From assembly GCA_016215605.1 (NCBI GenBank), contig JACRJB010000062.1:1-64000 (forward strand): DNA of 64,000 nucleotides. Direction: 5' to 3'. The notes beneath the pieces were generated by a model. It ran no database searches, had not been told where the DNA came from, and worked only from the letters and a program-made list of their open reading frames with translations. Source of the DNA: Rhodopseudomonas palustris. Its GTDB lineage: Bacteria; Pseudomonadota; Alphaproteobacteria; Rhizobiales; Xanthobacteraceae. Position numbers and translations under genes: made by a program. This document shows, piece by piece, positions 48,301-61,092 of this stretch. The first letter of the stretch is position 1, and every line of letters starts with the position of its first letter.

Positions 48301-50004
48301 TCAGGGCTTGCCGATCGGTTGGCCGGTCTCTTCGGAAATCACCCTGGAGTGGGCTGGATCGCCGTCGGGCTGAGGTACACCTTTCAGCAGCAGAAATCTC
48401 ACCGAATGCGCGCCTGCGAGCCCTGCCGGATAGCGGATCTTGCGCTGGATGAGGAATTCGCCGCTTTGGTTCCGGGTCAGCGCGCCGCTGCGCATCAGCT
48501 GCAGCAGGCCGGCCTGCTGCGGGAGCACGTCGTAGGGCATTGCGGGCAACAGGCTGACCACTTTGGAGGCGTCGACCTCCATCACGCCGCCTGGACTGAA
48601 CCGCCGCAGTTCGGCTTCGACGCTGCGCATCGACGGCGTCTGCACCACGATGTTCGATGCATCGCCTTCGATGGTGATCGAGCCGCCGGATTTCTGGATC
48701 ACCATCACTTGCGGTTTGCGCGGGTCGGTCTGGCGCTGCACGGCGCCGGACGGCACCGAAAAGCCGCCGACCTCATAGCGCGCAACGACGAGATCGGGCG
48801 CCCGTCCGGCGTCCTCCGCCACCCGGCCGGAGGCCTTTGCGGTTTCGCCGGATTGCAGCTCGGTGAAATAGGGCAGGCAATTGCTCCCAGCCAGTTGCGT
48901 CAGGCGCTCGGCGGGCAGGCCGGTGGCGCCGGTGGCCTGCAGGCTCGCCAGCACCACGCGCTCGATCCGGTCGACCGCGCCGCTGAAATGCCAGATCGCC
49001 GCGGCATAGCTGGTGATCACCAGATACAGCGGTTCGGCGCCGGGCTCGACCGTGATGGTGCCGGCGTGCGTCACCTTGTCCATCGATCCCAGCGCGACGC
49101 TGGACAGCGCTTCGGTCTCGTAGAGGCCGAGCATCACGATCTTCGCCGCATTCGAGGCTTTCGGCATTGCGCATTTGGCGTGGGCTTCGTCCTCCTTGCG
49201 CTTGCGCTCGGCGGCCTCCGCCTCGGCGCGTTGCGCGCGCTCGGCATTGAAACGCTGGCGCTCGGCCTGCCGTCGTTCGGCGGCCGCGGCGGCCTCGCGG
49301 CGCAGTGCGGCGTTGGGTTCATCAAGGCGCGCCCGATAGGCGGCAAGCTCCTCCGCGCTGACGGTGCCGTTGCCGTCGGCATCCACGGTGCGGAACAGCA
49401 CGTCATACGCTGCTTCGAGTTCGGGCAGTGTCAGCGCGCCGTCGCCATCGACGTCGAACGCCAGCAGCGTCTGCAACTCGGTCGGTGGCGCGCGATATCC
49501 CGGCACCCTGAAGGTCGGCGCCGATTGAAACGCGGCGGCAGCTTCCGCAAGGGTGACCCGGCCGTCGCCGTCGGCATCAGGCTTCATCATGTCAGCGACG
49601 ACCCTGTCGATCCTCTCGGCGTAGGCAGCCTCCGTGACGCCCAGCTGGCTGGCGCGCTGCTCATAGCGCATCAAGGCGCGTAGTTCGTCGGCTGTCACCG
49701 CGCCGTCATTGTTCAGGTCGGCTCGGATCAATTGGGATATCGCGCTGGCGCGATATTGCGCGGCCATCATGGTGGCCCGGATCTCGTCATCGGCGCCGGT
49801 GAGCCGGCCGTCGCTGTTGACGTCGAGCTGGCCGAAGCTGGCGCGAGCCAACTGCAGATAGCGCTCGAGCGTCGTGCCGGCGGTCAGGCGTGCGAGCAAA
49901 TAGGTCGTCGATGGTGGCGGTGTGACCGGCGCCTGTGCCGAAGCCGGAACCGCCCAGGTCAACGCCAGTAGCGACAACGTCGCAAGTCGAGATAGATTGC
50001 GCAT
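48301..50004 (-). CDS. Secreted protein with five EF-hand calcium-binding motifs
   Basis: The 567-residue protein has a signal peptide (1-24, ends ASAQA) and five canonical EF-hand loops: 61-72 (DVNSDGRL), 96-107 (DLNNDGAV), 143-154 (DADGDGRV), 184-195 (DVDGDGAL) and 208-219 (DADGNGTV). A charged Ala/Glu/Arg helix follows (about 230-275), then a C-terminal half of about 290 residues with no family I recognise and a few Cys. The spacing of loops suggests two EF pairs plus one. GAGGGGG before the ATG at 50004 fixes the start; the frame stays open further upstream. A periplasmic calcium-responsive role is inference. Confidence 0.82.
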   Translation of the reverse strand: MRNLSRLATLSLLALTWAVPASAQAPVTPPPSTTYLLARLTAGTTLERYLQLARASFGQLDVNSDGRLTGADDEIRATMMAAQYRASAISQLIRADLNNDGAVTADELRALMRYEQRASQLGVTEAAYAERIDRVVADMMKPDADGDGRVTLAEAAAAFQSAPTFRVPGYRAPPTELQTLLAFDVDGDGALTLPELEAAYDVLFRTVDADGNGTVSAEELAAYRARLDEPNAALRREAAAAAERRQAERQRFNAERAQRAEAEAAERKRKEDEAHAKCAMPKASNAAKIVMLGLYETEALSSVALGSMDKVTHAGTITVEPGAEPLYLVITSYAAAIWHFSGAVDRIERVVLASLQATGATGLPAERLTQLAGSNCLPYFTELQSGETAKASGRVAEDAGRAPDLVVARYEVGGFSVPSGAVQRQTDPRKPQVMVIQKSGGSITIEGDASNIVVQTPSMRSVEAELRRFSPGGVMEVDASKVVSLLPAMPYDVLPQQAGLLQLMRSGALTRNQSGEFLIQRKIRYPAGLAGAHSVRFLLLKGVPQPDGDPAHSRVISEETGQPIGKP

Positions 50005-50171
50005 GTCGTATCCCCCTCGAGCCGCCAAGATCGCCGGCGAGTGTTTCGGAATGATCATCGCCGATGAAACTCGGCAGAATCGGTTAACGAAGGCGGTCAC
50101 GGGATCACGACATCTCCGCCGATATGGCGGATATCGCGGCGGCGATGTCGGGTGATTGGTATCGGAGCAAG

Positions 50172-50942
50172 ATGCAGCGGATGCACATACCGACAATGAC
50201 GACCATCGTGGTCGCGCTCGTCGTTCTCGCGGCCGGTTCGGCGCAGGCGCAGCCGCTGCCCGACGATTTCGTCTATCTGCGCGATCTCGATGCCAGCATC
50301 CAGCAGGACATCCGCTATGCCGGCGTGAACAACTTTGTCGGCCGCAGGCTGGCCGGCTACGACGCGAACGAATGCATCGTCAAGCGCTCGGTCGGGCTCG
50401 CGTTGCAGAAGGTGCAGCGTGAGCTGGCGCCGCAGAACGTCTCGCTGAAGATGCTCGACTGCTACCGGCCGGCGCGGGCGTCGCGCGACATGGTGGCGTG
50501 GGCGCAGGACGGCCATGAGACGCCGGCGCAGAAGCGCTACAATCCGGGCTTCAGCAAAGCCGATCTGTTCCGGCTCGGCTACATCGCCGCCGTGTCCGGC
50601 CATTCGACCGGCGCGGCGGTCGATCTCACGCTGGTCGATCTGCGCGCGCCGAAGGGGCCGGTGTTCGATCCGAATCGGGCCTATGCGGATTGCACCGCGC
50701 CGGAACGGCAGCGCGCGCCGGAGGACAGCGTCGACATGGGCACCGGCTACGACTGCTCCGACGCCAGGGCGCATACCGCTGCGAAACAGATTACCGCGGA
50801 GCAGCGCCGCTGGCGCCGACTGCTGGGATCGGCCATGGCGCGCCAGGGCTTCGTCAATTTCAGCAAGGAATGGTGGCACTTCTCGCTGCCGGGCGTCGGC
50901 AAGCAGCCGTACGATTTTCCGATCGCGCGCCGCGTGCGATAA
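50172..50942 (+). CDS. D-alanyl-D-alanine dipeptidase, VanX/DdpX-like (peptidase M15D)
   Basis: It should hydrolyse D-Ala-D-Ala, zinc-dependent. The 256-residue protein has an N-terminal hydrophobic segment ending AGSAQAQ, so it is exported. The M15 motifs are SGHSTGAAVD (His144 and Asp151, zinc ligands), EWWHF (Glu233 catalytic, His236 ligand) and the substrate-binding Arg in CYRPARAS. Periplasmic forms are thought to recycle or scavenge cell-wall dipeptide rather than give vancomycin resistance. GGAG before the ATG at 50172 supports the start; other in-frame ATGs lie at 50181 and 50196. It is divergent from the EF-hand gene. Confidence 0.9.
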   Translation: MQRMHIPTMTTIVVALVVLAAGSAQAQPLPDDFVYLRDLDASIQQDIRYAGVNNFVGRRLAGYDANECIVKRSVGLALQKVQRELAPQNVSLKMLDCYRPARASRDMVAWAQDGHETPAQKRYNPGFSKADLFRLGYIAAVSGHSTGAAVDLTLVDLRAPKGPVFDPNRAYADCTAPERQRAPEDSVDMGTGYDCSDARAHTAAKQITAEQRRWRRLLGSAMARQGFVNFSKEWWHFSLPGVGKQPYDFPIARRVR

Positions 50943-52709: not shown

Positions 52710-52735
52710 GGAGCAGACAGGTTCGCTTGCACTAC

Positions 52736-53734
52736 TCAAGAATGCGCGCTCGCATCGAACGCGCTGCGGATCTCGTCGGACGTCGCTTCGGCGCCGAGCA
52801 GGAGCGCGAGCAGGATGCGCGCCTTCGCACTGCCCAAGGAGCCTCCGGAAATCAGTCCACGCTCCAACAGGTCCATTTCCGAACCGGCAAAGCTGTAAGT
52901 TTGCGTCAGCGTCGGCCCCAATTGGACGCGTGACGTCAAGACGACCGGGATGGAGCTGGCGAGGTCGCCGAGCAACGGCGCGAGGTTCGCCGGAACGTGA
53001 CCTGCACCCAGCCCTTCGACGACGGCCCCTTTGTAACCGGCTTCACGGTGGGCGCCGATCATCCGCCCATCGTCGCCCAAAGCGATTGATAGTAAGGCGA
53101 CCGGAGCAAACCGGCCCTTGGATTCCCGGCGGGGGCCGGGTGCCGTGCTCGCCGGGAACGCAAACCGCGCCTGTCCCTCGACAACGAATCCGACTGGGCC
53201 ATGCGACGAGCGGAAGGACGAGGGCAGGGTGGTGTGGCCCTTCCTGACGAAGCGTGCTGCATGGATTTCATCGTTGAGCACGACAAGTGCACCGCGGCTC
53301 CGCGACGCAGCGTCTGCAGCGACGATCACCGAGCTCAGCAGATTGGCCGGGCCGTCGCAGCCCGCGGCTTGGGGAGGGCGCATCGCCCCGGTCACGACGA
53401 CAGGCTTGCCACTTTGCACCAAGATATCCAGCGCAAACGCCGTCTCCTCGATCGTGTCGGTGCCTTGAACGACGACTGCGCCATTCAAGTCTGTGTCGGC
53501 CAGACGTTCGACCAGCAGAGCAGCCAACATACCGAGGTCGTCGAAAGAGAGCGATGCGCCCGGCTTCCGCATGAGGGTCAGCGACTCGACGTCTGCGACG
53601 GCCGAGAGATGCGGAAGGTCTTGCAGGAGGTCAGCTGCGCCCAAAGTTGGCGAGACGCCGCCTCGTGCCGCGCCGGTCATGGTGATCGTGCCGCCGAGCG
53701 ATACGACCAGGACACGCGAGCGGAGCTTGCTCAA
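52736..53734 (-). CDS. Asparaginase/glutaminase-family amidohydrolase
   Basis: The 332-residue protein has the two asparaginase signatures: VLVVSLGGTITMT (nucleophile Thr in GGTIT) and VVVQGTDTIEETAF. The gene context argues for a pathway-specific amide rather than bulk asparagine. The TTG at 53734 overlaps the deacetylase stop (TTGA) and yields the usual family N-terminus; a GTG at 53782 would add 16 residues. It is the last gene of the four-gene operon. Codon use is less GC-biased than in aidB next door. Confidence 0.85.
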   Translation of the reverse strand: MSKLRSRVLVVSLGGTITMTGAARGGVSPTLGAADLLQDLPHLSAVADVESLTLMRKPGASLSFDDLGMLAALLVERLADTDLNGAVVVQGTDTIEETAFALDILVQSGKPVVVTGAMRPPQAAGCDGPANLLSSVIVAADAASRSRGALVVLNDEIHAARFVRKGHTTLPSSFRSSHGPVGFVVEGQARFAFPASTAPGPRRESKGRFAPVALLSIALGDDGRMIGAHREAGYKGAVVEGLGAGHVPANLAPLLGDLASSIPVVLTSRVQLGPTLTQTYSFAGSEMDLLERGLISGGSLGSAKARILLALLLGAEATSDEIRSAFDASAHS

Positions 53735-54621
53735 GCCGCAACCTGACTTTTGTGCCAATCCAGGATTTCGGCTCCGGTCCACATCACGACGCCGTCATGT
53801 CCTAGGATGTGATCGTACAGCATCTCCAGGTACTTGATCCTGTGCGGGACTCCCGTCAGGTAGGGGTGGATTGAGATCGCCATCACGCGCGGGATGTCGG
53901 CGCCCTCCAAATACAGCCGGTCGAACTGATCTTTGCCGCGGAGATAGATCTCGTCGGAGCGGTGCTGTTGAACGGCGCTAATGACGACGTCGTTGATCTC
54001 CACTGTGTACGGCACCGACACAATGCCGCCGAACCGTGTGTTGAGCGACACCGGCTGATCGTCCAACACCCAGTCGGCAACGTACTCGATGCCCGCCTCG
54101 GCGAGCAGATCGAGCGTGTCGTCGGTTTCAGTCAGGCCGGGACTTTCCCAGCCACGAGGGGCATAGCCGCAAAAATCTTTGATTGCCTTGATCGTGTCGT
54201 GAACGGCGCTGCGCTGATCCTCGAGCGTGTGCATCGGGCGCTGAACATAGCCGTGTCCGATGAACTCCCACCCGGCATTCAGGGCGGCCCGGCAAATTTC
54301 CGAATAGAGCGAACAGACCGAGCCGTTGACGGCAAACGACGCACGCAACCCGCGCGAGGACAAAACCTCGAGGAAGCGCCAGAAGCCGACCCGCATTCCG
54401 TATTCATGCCAAGCCCAATTCGGAAGATCGGGCAGCAGCGATCGCCCCATCGGCGGAGGCAGTACGGCCCGCGGCATCGGTGCGGACGGCTCCCAATTTT
54501 CGGCGTTGACGATCGTCCAGACAGCGACGCGGGCGTTGCCTGGCAGCGTCGTTTTCGGTCGTCCGTTGATCGAAGCGTAGGGCAGGCGCGCACGCAGATT
54601 GCTTCCCGGATCCCCTGTCAC
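53731..54621 (-). CDS. NodB-homology polysaccharide deacetylase-fold protein, PuuE-like
   Basis: The 296-residue protein has the CE4/NodB fold of the PuuE (allantoinase-like) group: RVAVWTIVNAENWEP near the N-terminus, LPNWAWHEYGMRVGFWRFLE, WEFIGHGYVQRPM with a metal His, GWESPGLTETDDTLDLL and VMAISIHPYLTGVPHRI. This group includes enzymes acting on cyclic ureides and imides, not only sugars. The GTG at 54621 overlaps the MFS stop as GTGA and sets the start. The substrate is unknown. Confidence 0.82.
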   Translation of the reverse strand: MTGDPGSNLRARLPYASINGRPKTTLPGNARVAVWTIVNAENWEPSAPMPRAVLPPPMGRSLLPDLPNWAWHEYGMRVGFWRFLEVLSSRGLRASFAVNGSVCSLYSEICRAALNAGWEFIGHGYVQRPMHTLEDQRSAVHDTIKAIKDFCGYAPRGWESPGLTETDDTLDLLAEAGIEYVADWVLDDQPVSLNTRFGGIVSVPYTVEINDVVISAVQQHRSDEIYLRGKDQFDRLYLEGADIPRVMAISIHPYLTGVPHRIKYLEMLYDHILGHDGVVMWTGAEILDWHKSQVAA

Positions 54622-55922
54622 TTCAAGCCCTCCATTTTCTCGGAGATGCCGGAAGGCGTCCGGGGCCGATCGTTTGCGACGGCTGGACGCGGTCTCAGTT
54701 GTTTGGTGTCGAAGAACAGCATCGAGACGATGGCGAACAGCGGGACGGCGCAAAGCTGAAGACTGGCCGCATCTCCCCAGCCGAATTTCGCCTGAAGGCT
54801 CGCGAACAGATAGCCGGCCAGACTCGCCGGCAGGTAGAGGCAGGTCACCATGATGCCCGAGGCTCTGCCGATGAACTCGGGACGTACGCACCGCTGGATC
54901 AACGAGTACGTGTTGACGAACAGAACGCCGCTGCCGACCGCACCAAAGCCGAAGGCCAGGACATTTTGAGCGGCAGGCGAATGCGCGACGTTGAACATGA
55001 GATAGGAATTGACCAACATCACGGCCATTGCGGTGATCCCGATCCATCGTTGATCGGCACGATCGGCAACCCATCCGGCCGGAATTCCGAACAACGCGCC
55101 AAGGCCGAACAGGCTGGCCGCAAATCCAGCCTGAGTTACGGAAAAGCCGAGTTCGGTGCGGAGAAACGTCGGGTAAAGTCCGATGAACCCGTATCCCGCC
55201 ACACCCAGCGTCATCGCGCTGATGCCGCAGATCACAACATTGCGGTTCAACAGGCCGGCGCCGACGGGAGACGCGTCCGCGCTACCTTGGGCGGCAACCT
55301 GATGGCCGATTTCGGTGAAACGAGGCGACACGAACCAATAGGCCAGAACCATGACGACAAAGCCCAAGCATCCGTAGACGATCAGAGGGGCCCGCCAGTC
55401 GCCGGTCCAGAGCAGGATGTACGCTGCGAGCGTCGGTCCGATGAAAGATCCCATACCGTAGGCGAAATTCATCGCGCCGACGGCCATCGCGCGCTGAGCG
55501 GCGAAATACGCACCGACCGCCGTAAACAGCGCGGCATTCTGCATCCCTTCACCGATCCCCGACAGCGCGCGATATGCGGCCATATCCCAGAAACCGAGCG
55601 AGAGCGCGGAGAGGATCGTGAGAAGGGAGTAGATCGCGATGCCGATGAGCATCACGTTGAGGCGCGAGACCCGATCGAGCAGATATCCGGTCGGCAGTCC
55701 CGAGAGACCGATACCGAGTGTGAAAATGGTCGCCAGGAAGCCCCCCTGGCCAAGCGAAAAGCCGTATTCCTTGTTCACGTTTGGCAACAGCACGGAAAAG
55801 ACGATCCGGTCCATCGCATTGACTGCGTATGTCACGCCCAAGACGATCAGCATGGCAATCGCTGCCTGCCGAGTCAGTTGGCCATCTACGAGATTTGCGG
55901 GTTTCATGTTAAGAACATCCAT
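54618..55922 (-). CDS. MFS transporter of the catabolic operon
   Basis: The 434-residue protein has 12 predicted membrane segments (AVNAMDRIVFSVLLPNVNKEYG, GYLLDRVSRLNVMLIG, GEGMQNAALFTAVGAYF). It resembles organic-acid MFS permeases. It lies 33 bases after the hydrolase gene and overlaps the deacetylase gene, so it most likely imports the substrate of this operon. The ATG at 55922 or 55907 could be the start. Confidence 0.87.
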   Translation of the reverse strand: MDVLNMKPANLVDGQLTRQAAIAMLIVLGVTYAVNAMDRIVFSVLLPNVNKEYGFSLGQGGFLATIFTLGIGLSGLPTGYLLDRVSRLNVMLIGIAIYSLLTILSALSLGFWDMAAYRALSGIGEGMQNAALFTAVGAYFAAQRAMAVGAMNFAYGMGSFIGPTLAAYILLWTGDWRAPLIVYGCLGFVVMVLAYWFVSPRFTEIGHQVAAQGSADASPVGAGLLNRNVVICGISAMTLGVAGYGFIGLYPTFLRTELGFSVTQAGFAASLFGLGALFGIPAGWVADRADQRWIGITAMAVMLVNSYLMFNVAHSPAAQNVLAFGFGAVGSGVLFVNTYSLIQRCVRPEFIGRASGIMVTCLYLPASLAGYLFASLQAKFGWGDAASLQLCAVPLFAIVSMLFFDTKQLRPRPAVANDRPRTPSGISEKMEGLK

Positions 55923-55955
55923 CGATGGACGATACGGTGATCGGGAACGAAGCGA

Positions 55956-57185
55956 TTAGATCTGTGGGATCGAACGTCCTTGCCGAAGAGCGCGCTCGTC
56001 GATGCCGAACTTCTCGGCCAGCCAGTCACCGATGATCTCCTGAGCGATGGTCGGGTTGTCGTGCTGACAATGATCCGCGCCGGTTTGCTCTTCGCCGACC
56101 AGATGAAACGTCACATCGACGCCATTCGCCGCGGCGTAGTCGGCCACGATCCGTGCCTGCGCCACGCCGAGGACGTCGTATCCGCCGTGAACGATCAGGT
56201 ACGGACAGGTCATCCGGTTCAGAACGCCTTCAAGTCGAAAGTTGGCGATCTTCTCGCGTACGCCCTGCATCGACTGGGCGCCCATCACCCATTTGAAATG
56301 CTTGGCGAGTCCCCAGTCTTCGTCGCGATCGACGAGTTGGGAGGGAAGATCCCAGATCGCCCCGTGAGAGATGCAGGCAGCCAATCGCGGATCGCAACTC
56401 CCCGCACGGGCGGCGTAGTAGCCGCCAAGGCTGGAGCCACAGACCGCGATCCTGCCCATGTCGACATCGTTGCGGGTCGCCAGATAGTCGATGCAGCGGC
56501 CGACCGGCACTTCATAGTCAAACCGGCTGAAGACCTGGTGACGGCGCAGTGTGCCGCCCTGTCCCGGACCATCGATCATCAGGACCGATATGCCACGCTG
56601 CAGAGCTCCACGAGCCTGCATGAACCACATTTCGTCCTTGATGGAGTCGAGCCCGCCCATCGAGATCAAGACGGGTTGCTTGCCATCGCCATACGCGGAT
56701 CTGACGAAGTAGGCACAGAGCGAAACCCCGTTCTCGTAAGGGACTTCGACCGCCTCTCCGGCAGGGGACAGATACGCAATGAATTTCTTCGAGCAGCTTT
56801 CCATCAGCTCGAAGGTTTTCAATCGACGGCGATCGTCGCCGTCGAGCCAGAATTCGGCCTGACGATAATAATTGGCGGCGCGAAGCCAGCTGTTCTGCGC
56901 GGTCTGAATGTGGCCGGCGGCCTCGGCCTCGTCGGCGTGGCGATGCAGCGCCTGCGCTGTCCTGGTCCATTCGCGAAACCAGCTCTCGTCGTCGCCCGGA
57001 GTCATCCGCGCGGCAGCGAGGAATGCTTCGCTGACAGCGCCGCCGCCCTCCTGTGTTTCACCAAGGCCGCGGCGGAACTGATACGACCACCAAGGGTGAT
57101 CCGGCCAATGCTGCCACCCATAGGGCTCATAGTGAGGGATCGAATTTGTAGTCTGCTCGTCGATCAGCGCGCGTTCGATGGCCAT
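55956..57185 (-). CDS. FrsA/DUF1100-like alpha/beta hydrolase, resembling 2,6-dihydropseudooxynicotine hydrolase
   Basis: The 409-residue protein has a helical N-terminal cap domain of about 130 residues (WWSYQFRRGLGETQEGGG, WLRAANYYRQAEFWL) and an alpha/beta-hydrolase core. Core elements are MIDGPGQGGTLRRH, the elbow CGSSLGGYYAAR (Ser252), Asp in VHGGYDVLG, and a late His in GADHCQHDNP. This cap-plus-core layout occurs in C-C-bond hydrolases such as the Arthrobacter nicotine-pathway enzyme (recall). It is first in the operon, with AGAGG before the ATG at 57185. Confidence 0.83.
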   Translation of the reverse strand: MAIERALIDEQTTNSIPHYEPYGWQHWPDHPWWSYQFRRGLGETQEGGGAVSEAFLAAARMTPGDDESWFREWTRTAQALHRHADEAEAAGHIQTAQNSWLRAANYYRQAEFWLDGDDRRRLKTFELMESCSKKFIAYLSPAGEAVEVPYENGVSLCAYFVRSAYGDGKQPVLISMGGLDSIKDEMWFMQARGALQRGISVLMIDGPGQGGTLRRHQVFSRFDYEVPVGRCIDYLATRNDVDMGRIAVCGSSLGGYYAARAGSCDPRLAACISHGAIWDLPSQLVDRDEDWGLAKHFKWVMGAQSMQGVREKIANFRLEGVLNRMTCPYLIVHGGYDVLGVAQARIVADYAAANGVDVTFHLVGEEQTGADHCQHDNPTIAQEIIGDWLAEKFGIDERALRQGRSIPQI

Positions 57186-57215
57186 GCGTGTACCTCTGAA
57201 ACCAACCTTCGAGCA

Positions 57216-57261
57216 TGATTACGGCAAGCAGGAATGATATTCAAGTAGCTTGAATATCATT
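57216..57261 (-). promoter_or_regulatory. Operon promoter overlapped by a perfect 29-base palindrome
   Basis: AATGATATTCAAG-TAG-CTTGAATATCATT (57233-57261) is a perfect inverted repeat with 13-base arms between the divergent hydrolase and regulator genes. On the minus strand TTGAAT (57244-57239) and TAATCA (57221-57216) are 17 bases apart, giving a plausible promoter whose -35 lies inside the palindrome. It is the likely operator of the adjacent XRE-cupin protein. Confidence 0.75.
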
Positions 57262-57311
57262 GTCGGTCTATATCGCTAAGATCGTCCGCGGCTGCCAGCG
57301 AAGGCTCGGAA

Positions 57312-57929
57312 ATGTCTACGAAAAAAGCTGCCAAAGCATCGGGTCGGGCGGTGGCAAAGCCGCCGGTGACGTCCGAAACGCAGATCGGCCTACGGCTCCG
57401 CCACCAGCGCATTGCCAAGCGAATGACGTTGAACGACCTCGCCAGGCAGGCGGATTGCTCGGAAAGCATGCTTTCCAAGGTTGAGAACGGCCGCGCGACG
57501 CCCTCGCTCAGAACCGTTCAGCGGCTGTGTGATGTGCTCGGGATCACGGTCGGTCAGCTGTTCGGACGAGCTAGCGAACGGCGTACGGTGTCCCGCGCCG
57601 GCGAACGGCCGATTTTGTCCATGCACCCGCTGCGGCCGGCGAATGAAGGAGTGCAGATGGAGCAACTCGTCCCCGCGGACCCGGGAAGTCTGTTGGAGGG
57701 CAGCATCCACGTCATCGCGCCGGGCGCGAAGATGGATCTAGTATCCCACGTTGGCGAAGAGGTCGCCTACGTGATCGAAGGGACGCTCGAGATCACGATT
57801 GGGGCGGAACGGTCGGTCGTTAGTGCTGGCGACTCCTATTACTTTCGTTCGGAGCTACCACACGGCTACCGTAACCCGGGGCCCGGCACGGCCAGAGTCA
57901 TCGTCATCAACACTCCGGCCACGTTCTGA
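57312..57929 (+). CDS. XRE-family regulator with C-terminal cupin domain
   Basis: The 205-residue protein has a helix-turn-helix (about 26-80; LRLRHQRIAKRMTLNDLARQADCSESMLSKVENGR) and a cupin sensor (about 110-200; HVGEEVAYVIEGTLEITIG, then DSYYFRSELPHGYRNPG). PuuR and other catabolic repressors share this design and bind small metabolites in the cupin. It is divergent from the operon and should control it through the 29-base palindrome. An unusual basic N-terminus (MSTKKAAKASGRAVAK) precedes the HTH. Confidence 0.9.
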   Translation: MSTKKAAKASGRAVAKPPVTSETQIGLRLRHQRIAKRMTLNDLARQADCSESMLSKVENGRATPSLRTVQRLCDVLGITVGQLFGRASERRTVSRAGERPILSMHPLRPANEGVQMEQLVPADPGSLLEGSIHVIAPGAKMDLVSHVGEEVAYVIEGTLEITIGAERSVVSAGDSYYFRSELPHGYRNPGPGTARVIVINTPATF

Positions 57930-57980
57930 CCAAGGCCTCACGTCGTGTTGCACGACCGCGATGGCCGCATGATCATTCCA

Positions 57981-58361
57981 CTAGACCGTCTCGCCCTCCG
58001 AGAAGTACCAGCGGCCTTTGTGTTTGCGGAATTGCGAACGCTCGTGGTGGGTCTGGTCGGCGCCGCCGCGGCTGAAGCGGGCGACGAATTCGACGGTGCC
58101 GCGGCTGCCTTTCTCGCTGCTGGCGAGGACGAGGAGATCGACGAAGGTCGATTCCTCCATCCAGGCGCGATTGGCGTCGTGGTCGAACAGGTCGCGGGTG
58201 TCGGGATCGGTGGTCTCGACGATGTAGTCGAAATCCTTCAGCACATAGGCGGCGTAGCGCGAGCGCATCAGCGCTTCCGGCGTCGCGGCGGGGCGGGCGC
58301 GGGCGAGCAGCGGTCCGCAGCACTCGTCATAGGGCTTGCCCGATCCGCAGACGCATTTCAT
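57981..58361 (-). CDS. YchJ-family protein with SEC-C zinc motif
   Basis: The 126-residue protein begins [17 protein letters not shown], the SEC-C motif (CxCxnCC zinc site), followed by the YchJ middle domain (NTF2-like; [21 protein letters not shown]). YchJ proteins are uncharacterised. The gene continues the minus-strand direction after ruvX, 40 bases downstream of it. Confidence 0.88.
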
Positions 58362-58401
58362 CGCACCGCCACCGTCGTTCGCTCACGCCGTCGCGGCCCG
58401 A

Positions 58402-58884
58402 TCAGCCGGCGCGATTCAGCGCCACCAGCCGGTCGAGCGCGCCCTGCAGAATGTAGATCGCGGCGTGTTCGTCAATGATCTTGGCCCGCTTGGCGCGGCT
58501 GACGTCGTTGGCGATCAGCTCGCGCTCGACCGCGGCGGTCGACAGCCGCTCGTCCCACAGCCCGATCGGCAGCTCGGTCAGCCGTGCGAAATTGCGCGCG
58601 AAGGCGCGGGTCGATTGCGCGCGCGGCCCCTCGCTGCCGTCCATGTTCAGCGGCAGCCCGAGCACGAAGCCGCAGGCGTTGCGTTCGGCGGCCAGCGCCA
58701 GCAGGCGCTTGGCGTCGGCCGTGAAGGCGGTGCGCGCGACGGTCTCGATCCCGGTCGCGAGTTTGCGATCCGGATCGGAGACGGCGACGCCGATCGTCTT
58801 GGTGCCGAGATCGAGGCCGACCAGCGAGCCGCGCACCGGCCACAGCGCAGCGCACTCGATCAAAGGAAGAATGGGGGCAGGCAT
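58402..58884 (-). CDS. ruvX: RuvX/YqgF, pre-16S rRNA nuclease (Holliday-junction-resolvase-like)
   Basis: The 160-residue protein shows the YqgF fold: [15 protein letters not shown] with the first catalytic Asp, [15 protein letters not shown], and [14 protein letters not shown], then [13 protein letters not shown] with the last Asp. YqgF acts in 16S rRNA 5' end maturation. The ATG at 58884 fits family length. It is divergent from oleate hydratase. Confidence 0.93.
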
Positions 58885-59026
58885 CGCTGCCGCATAGCAG
58901 CCCACGGACGCCGGCGCAAAGCTGATCCCGTCGCTGTCGAGGCTGGAGTTTGGAGCGGCACGGCCAGGATGGTGTCTGGATACCTTGCAATCGTTGCGGT
59001 TTTCCGCCTGCAGCCCCGATTTGAAC

Positions 59027-59059
59027 AATATCGAACGATATTCAGATATCAGTTGATAT
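59027..59059 (+). promoter_or_regulatory. Two tandem palindromes upstream of oleate hydratase
   Basis: AATATCG-AA-CGATATT (59027-59042) and ATATCA-GT-TGATAT (59046-59059) are perfect dyads whose centres are 18 bases apart, about 55-85 bases before the oleate hydratase start. GATATTCAG also occurs twice, 18 bases apart. Such spacing suits two regulator dimers on one face of the helix, for example the TetR protein encoded downstream. Confidence 0.6.
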
Positions 59060-59112
59060 TCAGCTTGAGGTCGATCGCCATCCCCGGATGCGATCGACGG
59101 AAGGGAAAGACC

Positions 59113-61092
59113 ATGACCGACCGAGCCCATCGTGCGGGCGACCCGATGTCCGCCAAGCTTCTGGTCGAAGCCAATGTCGGCGCAGGTTTCTGGCGCAAAG
59201 GCCCCAGCGATACGCTGCCGCCGCCCGACATGATGGGCCCGTACATGCGCAACCGGCCGGCTCCGGTCGAGCCGGTGGTCGGGCGCAAGGCCTGGATCAT
59301 CGGCAGCGGCATCGCCGGACTGGCCGCCGCCTTCTATCTGATCCGCGACGGCGGCATGAAAGGCGAGGACATCACCATCCTCGATACGATGGAGATCACC
59401 GGCGGCTCGCTCGACGGCGCCGGCAATGCCGACGACGGCTACATCATCCGCGGCGGCCGCGAGATGAACTTCAACTACGACAATTTTTGGGACCTGTTTC
59501 AGGACGTGCCGGCGCTGGAAATGCCGGCCGGCTACAGCGTGCTCGACGAATACCGGCTGGTGAACGACAACGACCCGAACTGGTCGAAGGCGCGGCTGAT
59601 GCACAAGCAGGGCGAGATCCGTGACTTCTCGACGCTGGGCCTGAGCAAGCTGCACCAATGGGAGCTCCTCAAACTGCTGCTCAAGCGCAAGGAGGATCTC
59701 GACGACGTCACCATCGAGCAATATTTCAGCAAGAGCTTCTTCGAAACGAACTTCTGGTATCTCTGGCGCTCGATGTTCGCGTTCGAGAACTGGCAGAGCC
59801 TTCTGGAAATGAAGCTCTACATGCATCGCTTCCTCGATGCGATCGACGGCCTGACCGACATGTCGGCCCTGGTGTTCCCGAAATACAATCAGTACGACAG
59901 CTTCGTGGTGCCGCTGACCCGCCTGCTCAAAGACAAGGGCGTCAAGGTGCAGTTCGGCACCCGAGCCTACGACCTCGACATGACCGAGGAGGCCGGCCGC
60001 CGCACCGTGACGGCGATCCGCTGCAAGACAGCGGGTAGGGACGACGCGATCGCGATCGGTCCCAACGACGTGGTGTTCGCGCTCACCGGCTCGATGACCG
60101 AAGGGACCGCCTACGGCGACATGGATACGGCTCCGATGCTGGCGCGCGGCAATGCCGAACCGGGCGAGGGCAGCGACTGGATGCTGTGGCAGAACCTGGC
60201 GACTAAGTCGCCGGTGTTCGGCAAGCCGGAAAAATTCTACGGCAATGTCGCCGGCTCGATGTGGGAGTCGGCGACGCTGACCTGCAGGCCGTCCCCTCTG
60301 GTCGACAGGCTGAAGCAATTGTCGGTCAACGATCCGTATTCCGGCAAGACCGTCACCGGCGGCATCATCACCTTCACCGACTCGAACTGGGTGCTCAGCT
60401 TCACCTGCAACCGCCAGCCGCATTTTCCGACCCAGCCCGACGACGTGCTGGTGCTCTGGGTCTATGCGCTGCTGATGGACAAGGACGGCAACTTCATCAA
60501 GAAGCCGATGCCGGCGTGCACCGGCCGGGAGATCCTGGCGGAGCTCTGCTACCATCTCGGGATCGTCGATCAGCTCGATGCGGTCGCGGCCAACACCAAA
60601 GTCCGGCTGGCGCTGATGCCCTACATCACCGCGCAGTTCATGCCGCGGGCGGCGGGCGACCGCCCGCGCGTGGTGCCCGAGGGCTGCACCAATCTGGCGC
60701 TGATGGGGCAATTCGTCGAGACCAGCAACGACATCATCTTCACGATGGAAGCCTCGGTGCGTACGGCGCGGATCGGCGTCTACACGCTGCTGGGTCTGCC
60801 CAAACAGGTCGCCGACATCAGCCCGACCCAATACGACATCCGCAATCTGCTGAAGGGCGCGCGCGCGCTGAACAACAACGAGCCGTTCCCCGGCGAGCGG
60901 CTGCTGCATCGCCTGCTCGACAACACTTACTACGCCCATATCCTGCCGCCGCTGCCGGAGCAGGACGACACGCTGCGCGAGCGCGCCGAAGCCGAGTTGT
61001 CGGCGTTGCTCGGCAAGGGAAGCCAGGCGCTCGGCGCGGTGGTCGGCTGGCTCGACCGGATGCGCGACGGACTGCGCGACACCGCGAAATAA
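59113..61092 (+). CDS. ohyA: Oleate hydratase (67 kDa myosin-cross-reactive antigen family)
   Basis: Oleate hydratases add water to cis-9 double bonds of fatty acids using FAD as a structural cofactor. The 659-residue protein has the FAD motif [15 protein letters not shown] (GxGxxG 64-69), [12 protein letters not shown], and RGGREM (Glu117, matching the catalytic Glu after Arg). Downstream is [18 protein letters not shown], a highly conserved family block. The segment after GGREM reads [11 protein letters not shown] rather than the usual ENHFECLWDLF, so it belongs to a divergent subgroup. AAGGGA supports the ATG at 59113. Confidence 0.92.

Follow-up and report, generated by a model that had tools for sequence, protein, structure and literature searches.

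This report concerns a block of five adjoining genes (52736–57929) in a 64,000-nt stretch of Rhodopseudomonas palustris DNA (contig JACRJB010000062.1, positions 1 to 64,000), the whole of which is called the window below. Four of the genes encode, in their order of transcription on the minus strand, an alpha/beta hydrolase, a transporter of the MFS type, a PuuE-like deacetylase, and an asparaginase-fold amidase, while the fifth encodes an XRE-cupin regulator and diverges from them. We propose, as a reading with about an even chance of being correct, that the block is a self-regulated, acquired catabolic cassette for the hydrolytic opening of a small cyclic imide or ureide, the cutting of a carbon–carbon (C–C) bond, and the release of ammonia. 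What is observed on the way to this reading are the gene families, the aligned active-site residues, the island in which the genes lie, a conserved neighbourhood, and a conserved palindrome. The enzyme families are already known; their combination and the conserved site are apparently undescribed, and new to us.

The arrangement of the genes can be read from the sequence itself. A gap of 33 nt separates the hydrolase and MFS genes (55923–55955), the MFS and deacetylase genes overlap by GTGA (54618–54621), and the deacetylase and asparaginase-fold genes by TTGA (53731–53734). An earlier note, made by a model from the letters and open reading frames of this DNA, had described the same order, strands, gap, and overlaps, as well as the divergent regulator gene, and the sequence bears it out on each of these points. 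All five products match Pfam families above the curated cut-offs, namely Asparaginase and Asparaginase_C, Polysacc_deac_1, MFS_1, the FrsA-like family, and a helix-turn-helix (HTH) domain with Cupin_2. The asparaginase-fold gene most likely starts with the TTG at 53734 and not with the GTG at 53782 of the open reading frame list, because the shorter form fits the alignment with its relatives; the GTG start of the deacetylase gene at 54621 also agrees with the alignment of relatives. Terminator-like and sigma-70-like sites occurred in the region at chance level only. The features are collected in Table 1.

Table 1. Position, strand, and basis of assignment of the features of the five-gene block
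Feature	Position	Strand	Basis
Horizontally acquired island between the convergent genes aidB and ychJ	52711..57983		Homology break versus congeners; G+C
Asparaginase-fold amidase, proposed half-amidase, 332 aa, TTG start	52736..53734	-	Pfam, NCBIfam, alignment
PuuE-like ring hydrolase (small-molecule branch of the CE4 fold), 296 aa, GTG start	53731..54621	-	Pfam, NCBIfam, alignment, fold
MFS transporter, proposed importer	54618..55922	-	Pfam, NCBIfam, relatives downstream of hydrolase
FrsA/DHPON-hydrolase-type alpha/beta hydrolase, proposed C–C hydrolase, 409 aa	55956..57185	-	Pfam, alignment, fold
Palindromic operator candidate, 29 nt, core TTCAAGNNNCTTGAA	57233..57261		Palindrome search, recurrence at homologous loci
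XRE-cupin transcriptional regulator, PuuR-like architecture, 205 aa	57312..57929	+	Pfam, NCBIfam

Judged by comparison with related genomes and by composition, the five-gene block is a horizontally acquired island. The nucleotide match to 13 congeners stops at about 52711 and restarts at about 57984, and in 13 of 15 same-genus genomes aidB adjoins ychJ without the island, at a spacing of about 100–270 nt; ychJ itself was found in all 15, and in the remaining two aidB lies outside its 1.5-kb flank. The G+C content of the island is 0.614, against 0.667 outside, and all 193 overlapping segments of the same size outside exceed it (minimum 0.630). At third codon positions the G+C content (GC3) is 0.73–0.75 for all five genes, compared with 0.85–0.89 for the neighbouring M15, aidB, ychJ, and ruvX genes (aidB 0.885, ychJ 0.866, ruvX 0.879; the last name is the label of the earlier note), so that the lower codon GC reported there with respect to aidB and ruvX is recovered. 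The deacetylase is absent at E ≤ 1e-30 from all 15 same-genus genomes and has a single match at E ≤ 0.001 in the host genome (5.79 Mb, 78 contigs). The hydrolase appears among the same 15 only as a distant match in two (E 1.7e-44 and 3.9e-45), and in a sample of the family (296 genomes including the host) it occurs at E 1e-151 or better in 30 other genomes. Samples spread evenly over class and order held no relative of the hydrolase (E ≤ 1e-120; 0 of 384 other genomes) or of the MFS protein (E ≤ 1e-100; 0 of 396 genomes), which says only that these two genes are patchy in distribution. No integrase is found among the five genes, no search having been aimed at mobile-element genes or at direct repeats at the junctions. 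One congener (G067; our loci L192 and L195; G067:C11, about 286456–287187) carries a partial second copy of ychJ between aidB and ychJ.

The neighbourhood of the hydrolase gene recurs in other bacteria. A genome scan with the hydrolase alignment returned 192 relatives (tblastn, E ≤ 1e-3), and the best 80, which are 60–77% identical to the window protein, were taken as named loci (L numbers below). Only 37 of these exceed 20 kb and many contigs are short; metagenome-assembled contigs and close relatives are among them, so that the counts are not independent. Neighbours were identified by Pfam, and the key counts were made by tblastn, since gene calling by script in the relatives sometimes chose antisense frames. 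A PuuE-like gene is present in 45 of the 80 loci and in 28 of the 37 longer ones, counts made without a random-window control; in these 45, the nearest such gene lies at a median distance of 968 nt from the hydrolase gene, is within 3 kb of it in 42 loci, and shares its strand in 44. Among these 45 loci, 32 have an isochorismatase-fold gene, 32 a branched-chain-type ABC transporter, and 23 both. Over all 80 loci the partners are isochorismatase-fold genes (36), ABC transporters of that type (32), FAH (29), GntR (29), XRE-cupin (16), AtzE-like amidase (16), Amidohydro_2 (14), molybdenum (Mo)-hydroxylase subunits (10), MFS (7), and asparaginase-fold genes (2). The expectation of the earlier note that its genes should co-occur thus stands for the hydrolase and the PuuE-like enzyme and fails for the rest, given that an MFS gene directly follows the hydrolase gene in four loci and an asparaginase-fold gene accompanies it in two. 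The four genes are not one fixed set: the gene content of the relatives rules out a fixed four-gene unit.

A large cluster is found whole or largely so in Limnohabitans, Azorhizobium, Aquabacter, Pseudolabrys, Tardiphaga, Ramlibacter, and others, with the order hydrolase, isochorismatase, PuuE-like A, FAH, PuuE-like B, ABC transporter, and amidase, and with either a divergent GntR gene or the palindrome described below. These clusters of Alpha- and Betaproteobacteria resemble the island in their homologous hydrolase (60–66% identity) and, in part, in the palindrome, and the PuuE-like A and B genes of two of them (L096, L088) are 48–50% identical to the window deacetylase. They differ from it in having a second PuuE-like enzyme, FAH, and often a GntR regulator, and they have an ABC importer and an isochorismatase-fold amidase where the island has an MFS transporter and an asparaginase-fold amidase. 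In the hydrolase tree the window protein groups with those of Bradyrhizobium sp. WSM3983 (L099) and Chelatococcus reniformis (L100) with a support of 0.998, followed by L103 (0.892) and then L101 (0.994). The two nearest loci have the order regulator, palindrome, hydrolase, MFS, and deacetylase. L101 has hydrolase and MFS, with the regulator, an isochorismatase-fold gene, and the deacetylase on the other side, and L103 has hydrolase and MFS with neither a regulator nor a PuuE-like gene in the available DNA. MFS relatives (51–73% identity) stand directly downstream of the hydrolase at these four loci only. L099 also holds Mo-hydroxylase and luciferase-like monooxygenase genes.

The deacetylase and asparaginase-fold genes are adjacent at L033, L035, L041, and L161, the last of which has hydrolase and isochorismatase genes too. 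L176 has the hydrolase, the deacetylase, and both types of amidase, the asparaginase-fold gene lying on the opposite strand beyond the regulator. The host genome lacks an isochorismatase orthologue, its best matches being at 30–40%. At E ≤ 1e-20 the isochorismatase-fold gene is absent from the genomes of L099, L100, and L103 and present in that of L101, and the asparaginase-fold gene is absent from those of L100, L101, and L103, with a 37% match in the genome of L099. It is plausible that the asparaginase-fold enzyme stands in for the isochorismatase-fold enzyme in this host, without this being a general rule.

Between the hydrolase and regulator genes lies the palindrome AATGATATTCAAG-TAG-CTTGAATATCATT, with perfect 13-nt arms around a 3-nt centre, the like of which never arose when the intergenic region was shuffled base by base 2000 times. 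Its core, TTCAAGNNNCTTGAA, was sought, one mismatch being allowed, in the 200 nt before each gene of the 80 loci, and it precedes 20 of 85 hydrolase genes (14 with a perfect match) against 7 of 1114 other genes, the counts being uncorrected for the relatedness of the loci; five of those seven are, judged by position, divergent neighbours that share the site of a hydrolase gene. The core is present in 14 of 16 loci with an XRE gene versus one of 28 with a GntR gene, and five loci combine it with PuuE-like and isochorismatase-fold genes and have no XRE gene in the available DNA. The site in the window is the only perfect match in its own genome, where places with at most one mismatch number eight, the same as for the reversed control pattern. 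An XRE-cupin gene also diverges from the hydrolase gene at L099, L100, L101, L102, L108, L115, L116, and L086. The XRE-cupin protein would probably bind the palindrome and repress the promoters on both sides as long as no ligand occupies its cupin domain.

The nearest solved relative of the hydrolase by sequence is the DHPON hydrolase 2jbw (E 8e-34), followed by SMU_737, Yg1-type proteins, AntI, FrsA, and AbyA5. In a fold search with an AlphaFold model, which like that of the deacetylase was built on a shallow alignment (15 sequences; mean predicted local distance difference test score, pLDDT, 74), SMU_737, annotated as an acylaminoacyl peptidase, came first and DHPON hydrolase second, and then Wdyg1p, Ayg1p, and AntI, whose entry titles mention polyketide shortening; 2jbw holds ranks 2 and 4–6 with template modelling (TM) scores of 0.67–0.69. 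Like DHPON hydrolase of the Arthrobacter nicotine pathway, the window protein has a two-domain alpha/beta hydrolase fold with a Ser-Asp-His triad. In an alignment read by hand, Ser252, Asp337, and His372 fall on Ser217, Asp300, and His329 of DHPON hydrolase, an enzyme whose triad roles, and whose product, 2,6-dihydroxypyridine, are those given in PMC6122326. Around its Glu248, for which the literature proposes a catalytic role, the alignment has gaps, and the offset that fits the triad places the published number on a residue other than Glu. The two differ in that their identity is 25% in the fold alignment and that the window protein has an N-terminal segment of its own and other partners. 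The DHPON hydrolase gene adjoins a gene for a Mo-hydroxylase large subunit, according to the same paper, whereas the island has no Mo-hydroxylase, the subunits being found at 10 of the 80 loci as said above. The N-terminal signature Y-P-GW-HWP--PW--YQ-RR-LGE-QEGGG is invariant in 15 members, and the conserved segment EPYGWHHWP...LGETQEGGG defines a distinct family.

The presence of SMU_737 as top fold match and of FrsA in the same fold group also suits an enzyme of another kind, an esterase, lactonase, or amidase, in a cassette that degrades an N-acyl or ester conjugate (e.g., a plant conjugate or an agrochemical) deacylated by the PuuE-like protein, and the occurrence of hydrolase homologues in loci where no imide-type enzyme was found points the same way. 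We regard this as unlikely, if not remote: by sequence the protein matches DHPON hydrolase best and AntI and the Yg1 proteins as well, and in its PuuE-like partner the second metal-site His of CE4 enzymes is missing.

The nearest proteins to the deacetylase by sequence are 3s6o, PuuE, and 1z7a. Among the matches listed, its AlphaFold model (17 sequences; mean pLDDT 84) groups with 3s6o, 1z7a, PuuE, 3rxz, and HP0310 at TM scores (query) of 0.68–0.78 and scores below 0.6 with other CE4 entries, and is thus nearer to PuuE and HP0310 than to polysaccharide deacetylases. The protein keeps Asn39, Glu41, His123, and His252, all invariant in 20 aligned sequences. The HxxxH metal site of CE4 enzymes is lacking in it, as the corresponding segment reads H123-x-x-x-Q127, with Gln127 for the second His and both residues invariant in 20 of 20 sequences. 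Polysaccharide or peptidoglycan deacetylation was rejected because of the missing His and the fold. The metal of HP0310 is held by His86 and His90, PuuE binds none, and the active sites of both are small and obstructed, as reported in PMC3084791. The cyclic imide hydrolase of P. putida and the fungal HxnM count with PuuE among the closest known systems, the comparison having covered HP0310, to which HxnM has been likened. The kinship with C–C hydrolases and with PuuE named in the earlier note is matched by the solved structures, since DHPON hydrolase and PuuE are among the nearest.

PuuE allantoinase (3cl6) shares with the deacetylase the small-molecule branch of the CE4 fold, and this opens the way to a ureide or hydantoin version of the pathway, in which a ring of the hydantoin type, allantoin-like or N-substituted, would be the target of the PuuE-like enzyme, the amidase and the hydrolase would act on the ureido acid, and the cassette would serve purine- or hydantoin-derived nitrogen. 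PuuE is the nearest NCBIfam family and among the nearest by fold, and the host has no second match to the deacetylase. Moreover, a ureidoglycolate-lyase-like gene (Pfam) precedes the deacetylase/asparaginase pair at L033, with a homologue in the same place at L035, and the isochorismatase-fold partner at L096 has its highest scores, both below cut-off, for biuret amidohydrolase and RutB. On the other side, the PuuE equivalog TIGR03212 of NCBIfam gives 114.7 bits against a cut-off of 424.6, on which allantoin degradation by a true PuuE was rejected for the window gene; the ureidoglycolate-lyase-like gene was found, with the cut-off applied, at none of the 80 loci; and a C–C hydrolase is not known to have a place in allantoin breakdown. 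The ureide version is accordingly an improbable one, though not negligibly so.

The asparaginase-fold protein is probably not an ordinary L-asparaginase, because it departs from asparaginase 2 (EcA2, 3eca) at several residues and shares motifs with related copies. Like type II L-asparaginase it has the fold, the nucleophilic Thr, the Thr-Asp pair, and the Lys (Thr12, Thr89, Asp90, and Lys162 in EcA2 numbering, in a 3eca alignment read by hand), and Glu283 aligns with a Glu. Unlike it, the protein has no Tyr in the Tyr25 loop (a gap against 3eca and 6wyw, Pro against 5mq5), has Ala/Ser for Ser58/Gln59 and His for Asn248 in the same alignment, and stays below the type II cut-off of NCBIfam (TIGR00520, 184.1 versus 314.3 bits). 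In the type II enzyme, Ser58 and Gln59 form a substrate-binding pair. The motifs GGTITM, GTDTI[ED]ET, and G-[AV]-GH are common to the window amidase and the copies of L033, L035, L041, L161, and L176, and the same six proteins carry KPGASL or LPGPSL. The L202 copy, which is more distant, is without these motifs. That a true polysaccharide deacetylase and a true asparaginase merely travel together, with no common pathway, would agree with the names that general annotation gives them. It is already disfavoured, and we hold it to be very improbable in view of the active-site departures in both enzymes, the 4-nt overlaps, and the adjacent pairing of their genes in four other loci.

If the block is the imide or ureide cassette that we prefer, the MFS protein would import a small nitrogen-containing ring compound, the PuuE-like enzyme would open the ring at an imide or ureide C–N bond, the FrsA/DHPON-hydrolase-like enzyme would cut a C–C bond beside a carbonyl, and the asparaginase-fold enzyme would free ammonia from the resulting half-amide, a deamidation that in many relatives would fall to the isochorismatase-fold amidase. 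The products would be ordinary (di)carboxylic acids and ammonia. In this scheme we infer the substrate class, the order of the steps, the direction of transport, and the repression. Since all three steps would be hydrolyses, neither oxygen nor a redox cofactor would be needed within the operon, and with three hydrolases, one transporter, and no redox enzyme, substrate and products would therefore differ by water only within it. There is a precedent in fungal nicotinate breakdown, where an imide ring is opened by HxnM, which the authors liken to HP0310, before HxnN removes the amide (PMC9304392). The HxnN-type amidase has another fold than the ring-opening enzyme. The logic of ring activation, ring opening, and deamidation is that of the nicotinate and nicotine pathways of Pseudomonas and Arthrobacter, yet, unlike their clusters, the island has no ring dioxygenase, hydroxylase, or oxygenase, no deformylase, and no maleate isomerase among its five genes.

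Because the product of DHPON hydrolase, 2,6-dihydroxypyridine, tautomerises to an imide, the pathway could be narrowed to a redox-free, oxygen-independent route for rings of this type as their imide (glutaconimide) tautomer. The C–C hydrolase would strip an acyl side chain, the PuuE-like imidase would open the ring, which the Arthrobacter nicotine pathway first hydroxylates, and the half-amidase would free ammonia and a C5 dicarboxylate. On this narrow reading, the relatives would be part of one unrecognised hydrolytic pathway for N-heterocycles, controlled in part through a conserved XRE-cupin operator, and an asparaginase-fold enzyme could take the place of the isochorismatase-fold amidase in it. 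So specific a proposal we consider quite doubtful. A bacterial citrazinate/aconitamide route would be a possible precedent; among the papers listed for citrazinate degradation there was carbon-dot, materials, or synthetic chemistry work only. The earlier note knew of no described pathway with this gene set, and none was found in the open-access literature either, which is weak evidence of absence as subscription papers mostly lie outside it.

Several observations weigh against the imide or ureide cassette. Identity to enzymes of known activity is only about 20–30%, and SMU_737, FrsA, and AbyA5 of the fold group of the hydrolase are not known to be C–C hydrolases. Some hydrolase genes adjoin genes for polyhydroxyalkanoate (PHA) synthase, a Rieske oxygenase, or gamma-glutamyltranspeptidase, so that imide chemistry is not the only setting in which the hydrolase occurs. 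No PuuE-like gene was found in the available DNA of 35 of the 80 loci, and 23, many of them on short contigs, have neither XRE, GntR, nor palindrome and neither PuuE-like, isochorismatase-fold, nor asparaginase-fold genes. The L100 genome is without either amidase at E ≤ 1e-20, and that of L099 nearly so, which means that the cassette and the amidase step do not go together in all genomes. Finally, Glu283 of asparaginase 2 binds the amino group of the substrate, and its match to a Glu means that the substrate of the asparaginase-fold enzyme may be an amino-acid amide.

Some further neighbourhoods of the homologues were seen. On a plasmid of Mesorhizobium sp. B2-1-1 (L202, 4364–9900) an asparaginase gene is followed in one direction by four genes (tartrate dehydrogenase, a mandelate racemase-type enzyme, a hypothetical protein, and a short-chain dehydrogenase/reductase) and then by a deacetylase gene of 59% identity, possibly another imide/amide operon. 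The loci L160, L126, L146, L148, and L177 have in common a different hydrolase neighbourhood, which in L160 and L126 includes Rieske oxygenase, luciferase-like monooxygenase, patatin, DAO-type oxidoreductase, and TctC receptor genes. At L079 (with the layout of L105) and L120 the hydrolase stands beside zinc alcohol dehydrogenase, 2-hydroxyacid dehydrogenase, and PHA synthase genes, identified by Pfam at L079 and as homologues at L120; the palindrome lies upstream of the hydrolase at L105 and L120, but no PuuE-like or amidase gene was found at these loci. A homologue on a Variovorax plasmid (47%) adjoins tripartite-tricarboxylate transporter and hydantoinase/oxoprolinase genes, which does not settle the substrate. 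In the window itself, a protein of the MCRA family, which is of the oleate hydratase type, is encoded near the island (58336–61092, plus strand; the listed reading frame begins well before the domain), and a large protein with several EF-hand motifs (48301–50196, minus strand) adjoins the M15 gene (50124–50942), a member of the D-Ala-D-Ala dipeptidase family.

The block points to a catabolic neighbourhood that recurs in Alpha- and Betaproteobacteria and is apparently undescribed; its hydrolase family and its palindromic site are defined, and the range of its partners is limited. The pathway is testable, as the regulator and its site could serve as a reporter for the inducer and the three hydrolases could be tried on sets of cyclic imides and dihydroxypyridines. 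If the imide or ureide proposal is true, rings of this sort would be degraded with no oxygenase in the operon, and amidases of two unrelated folds would occupy equivalent places.

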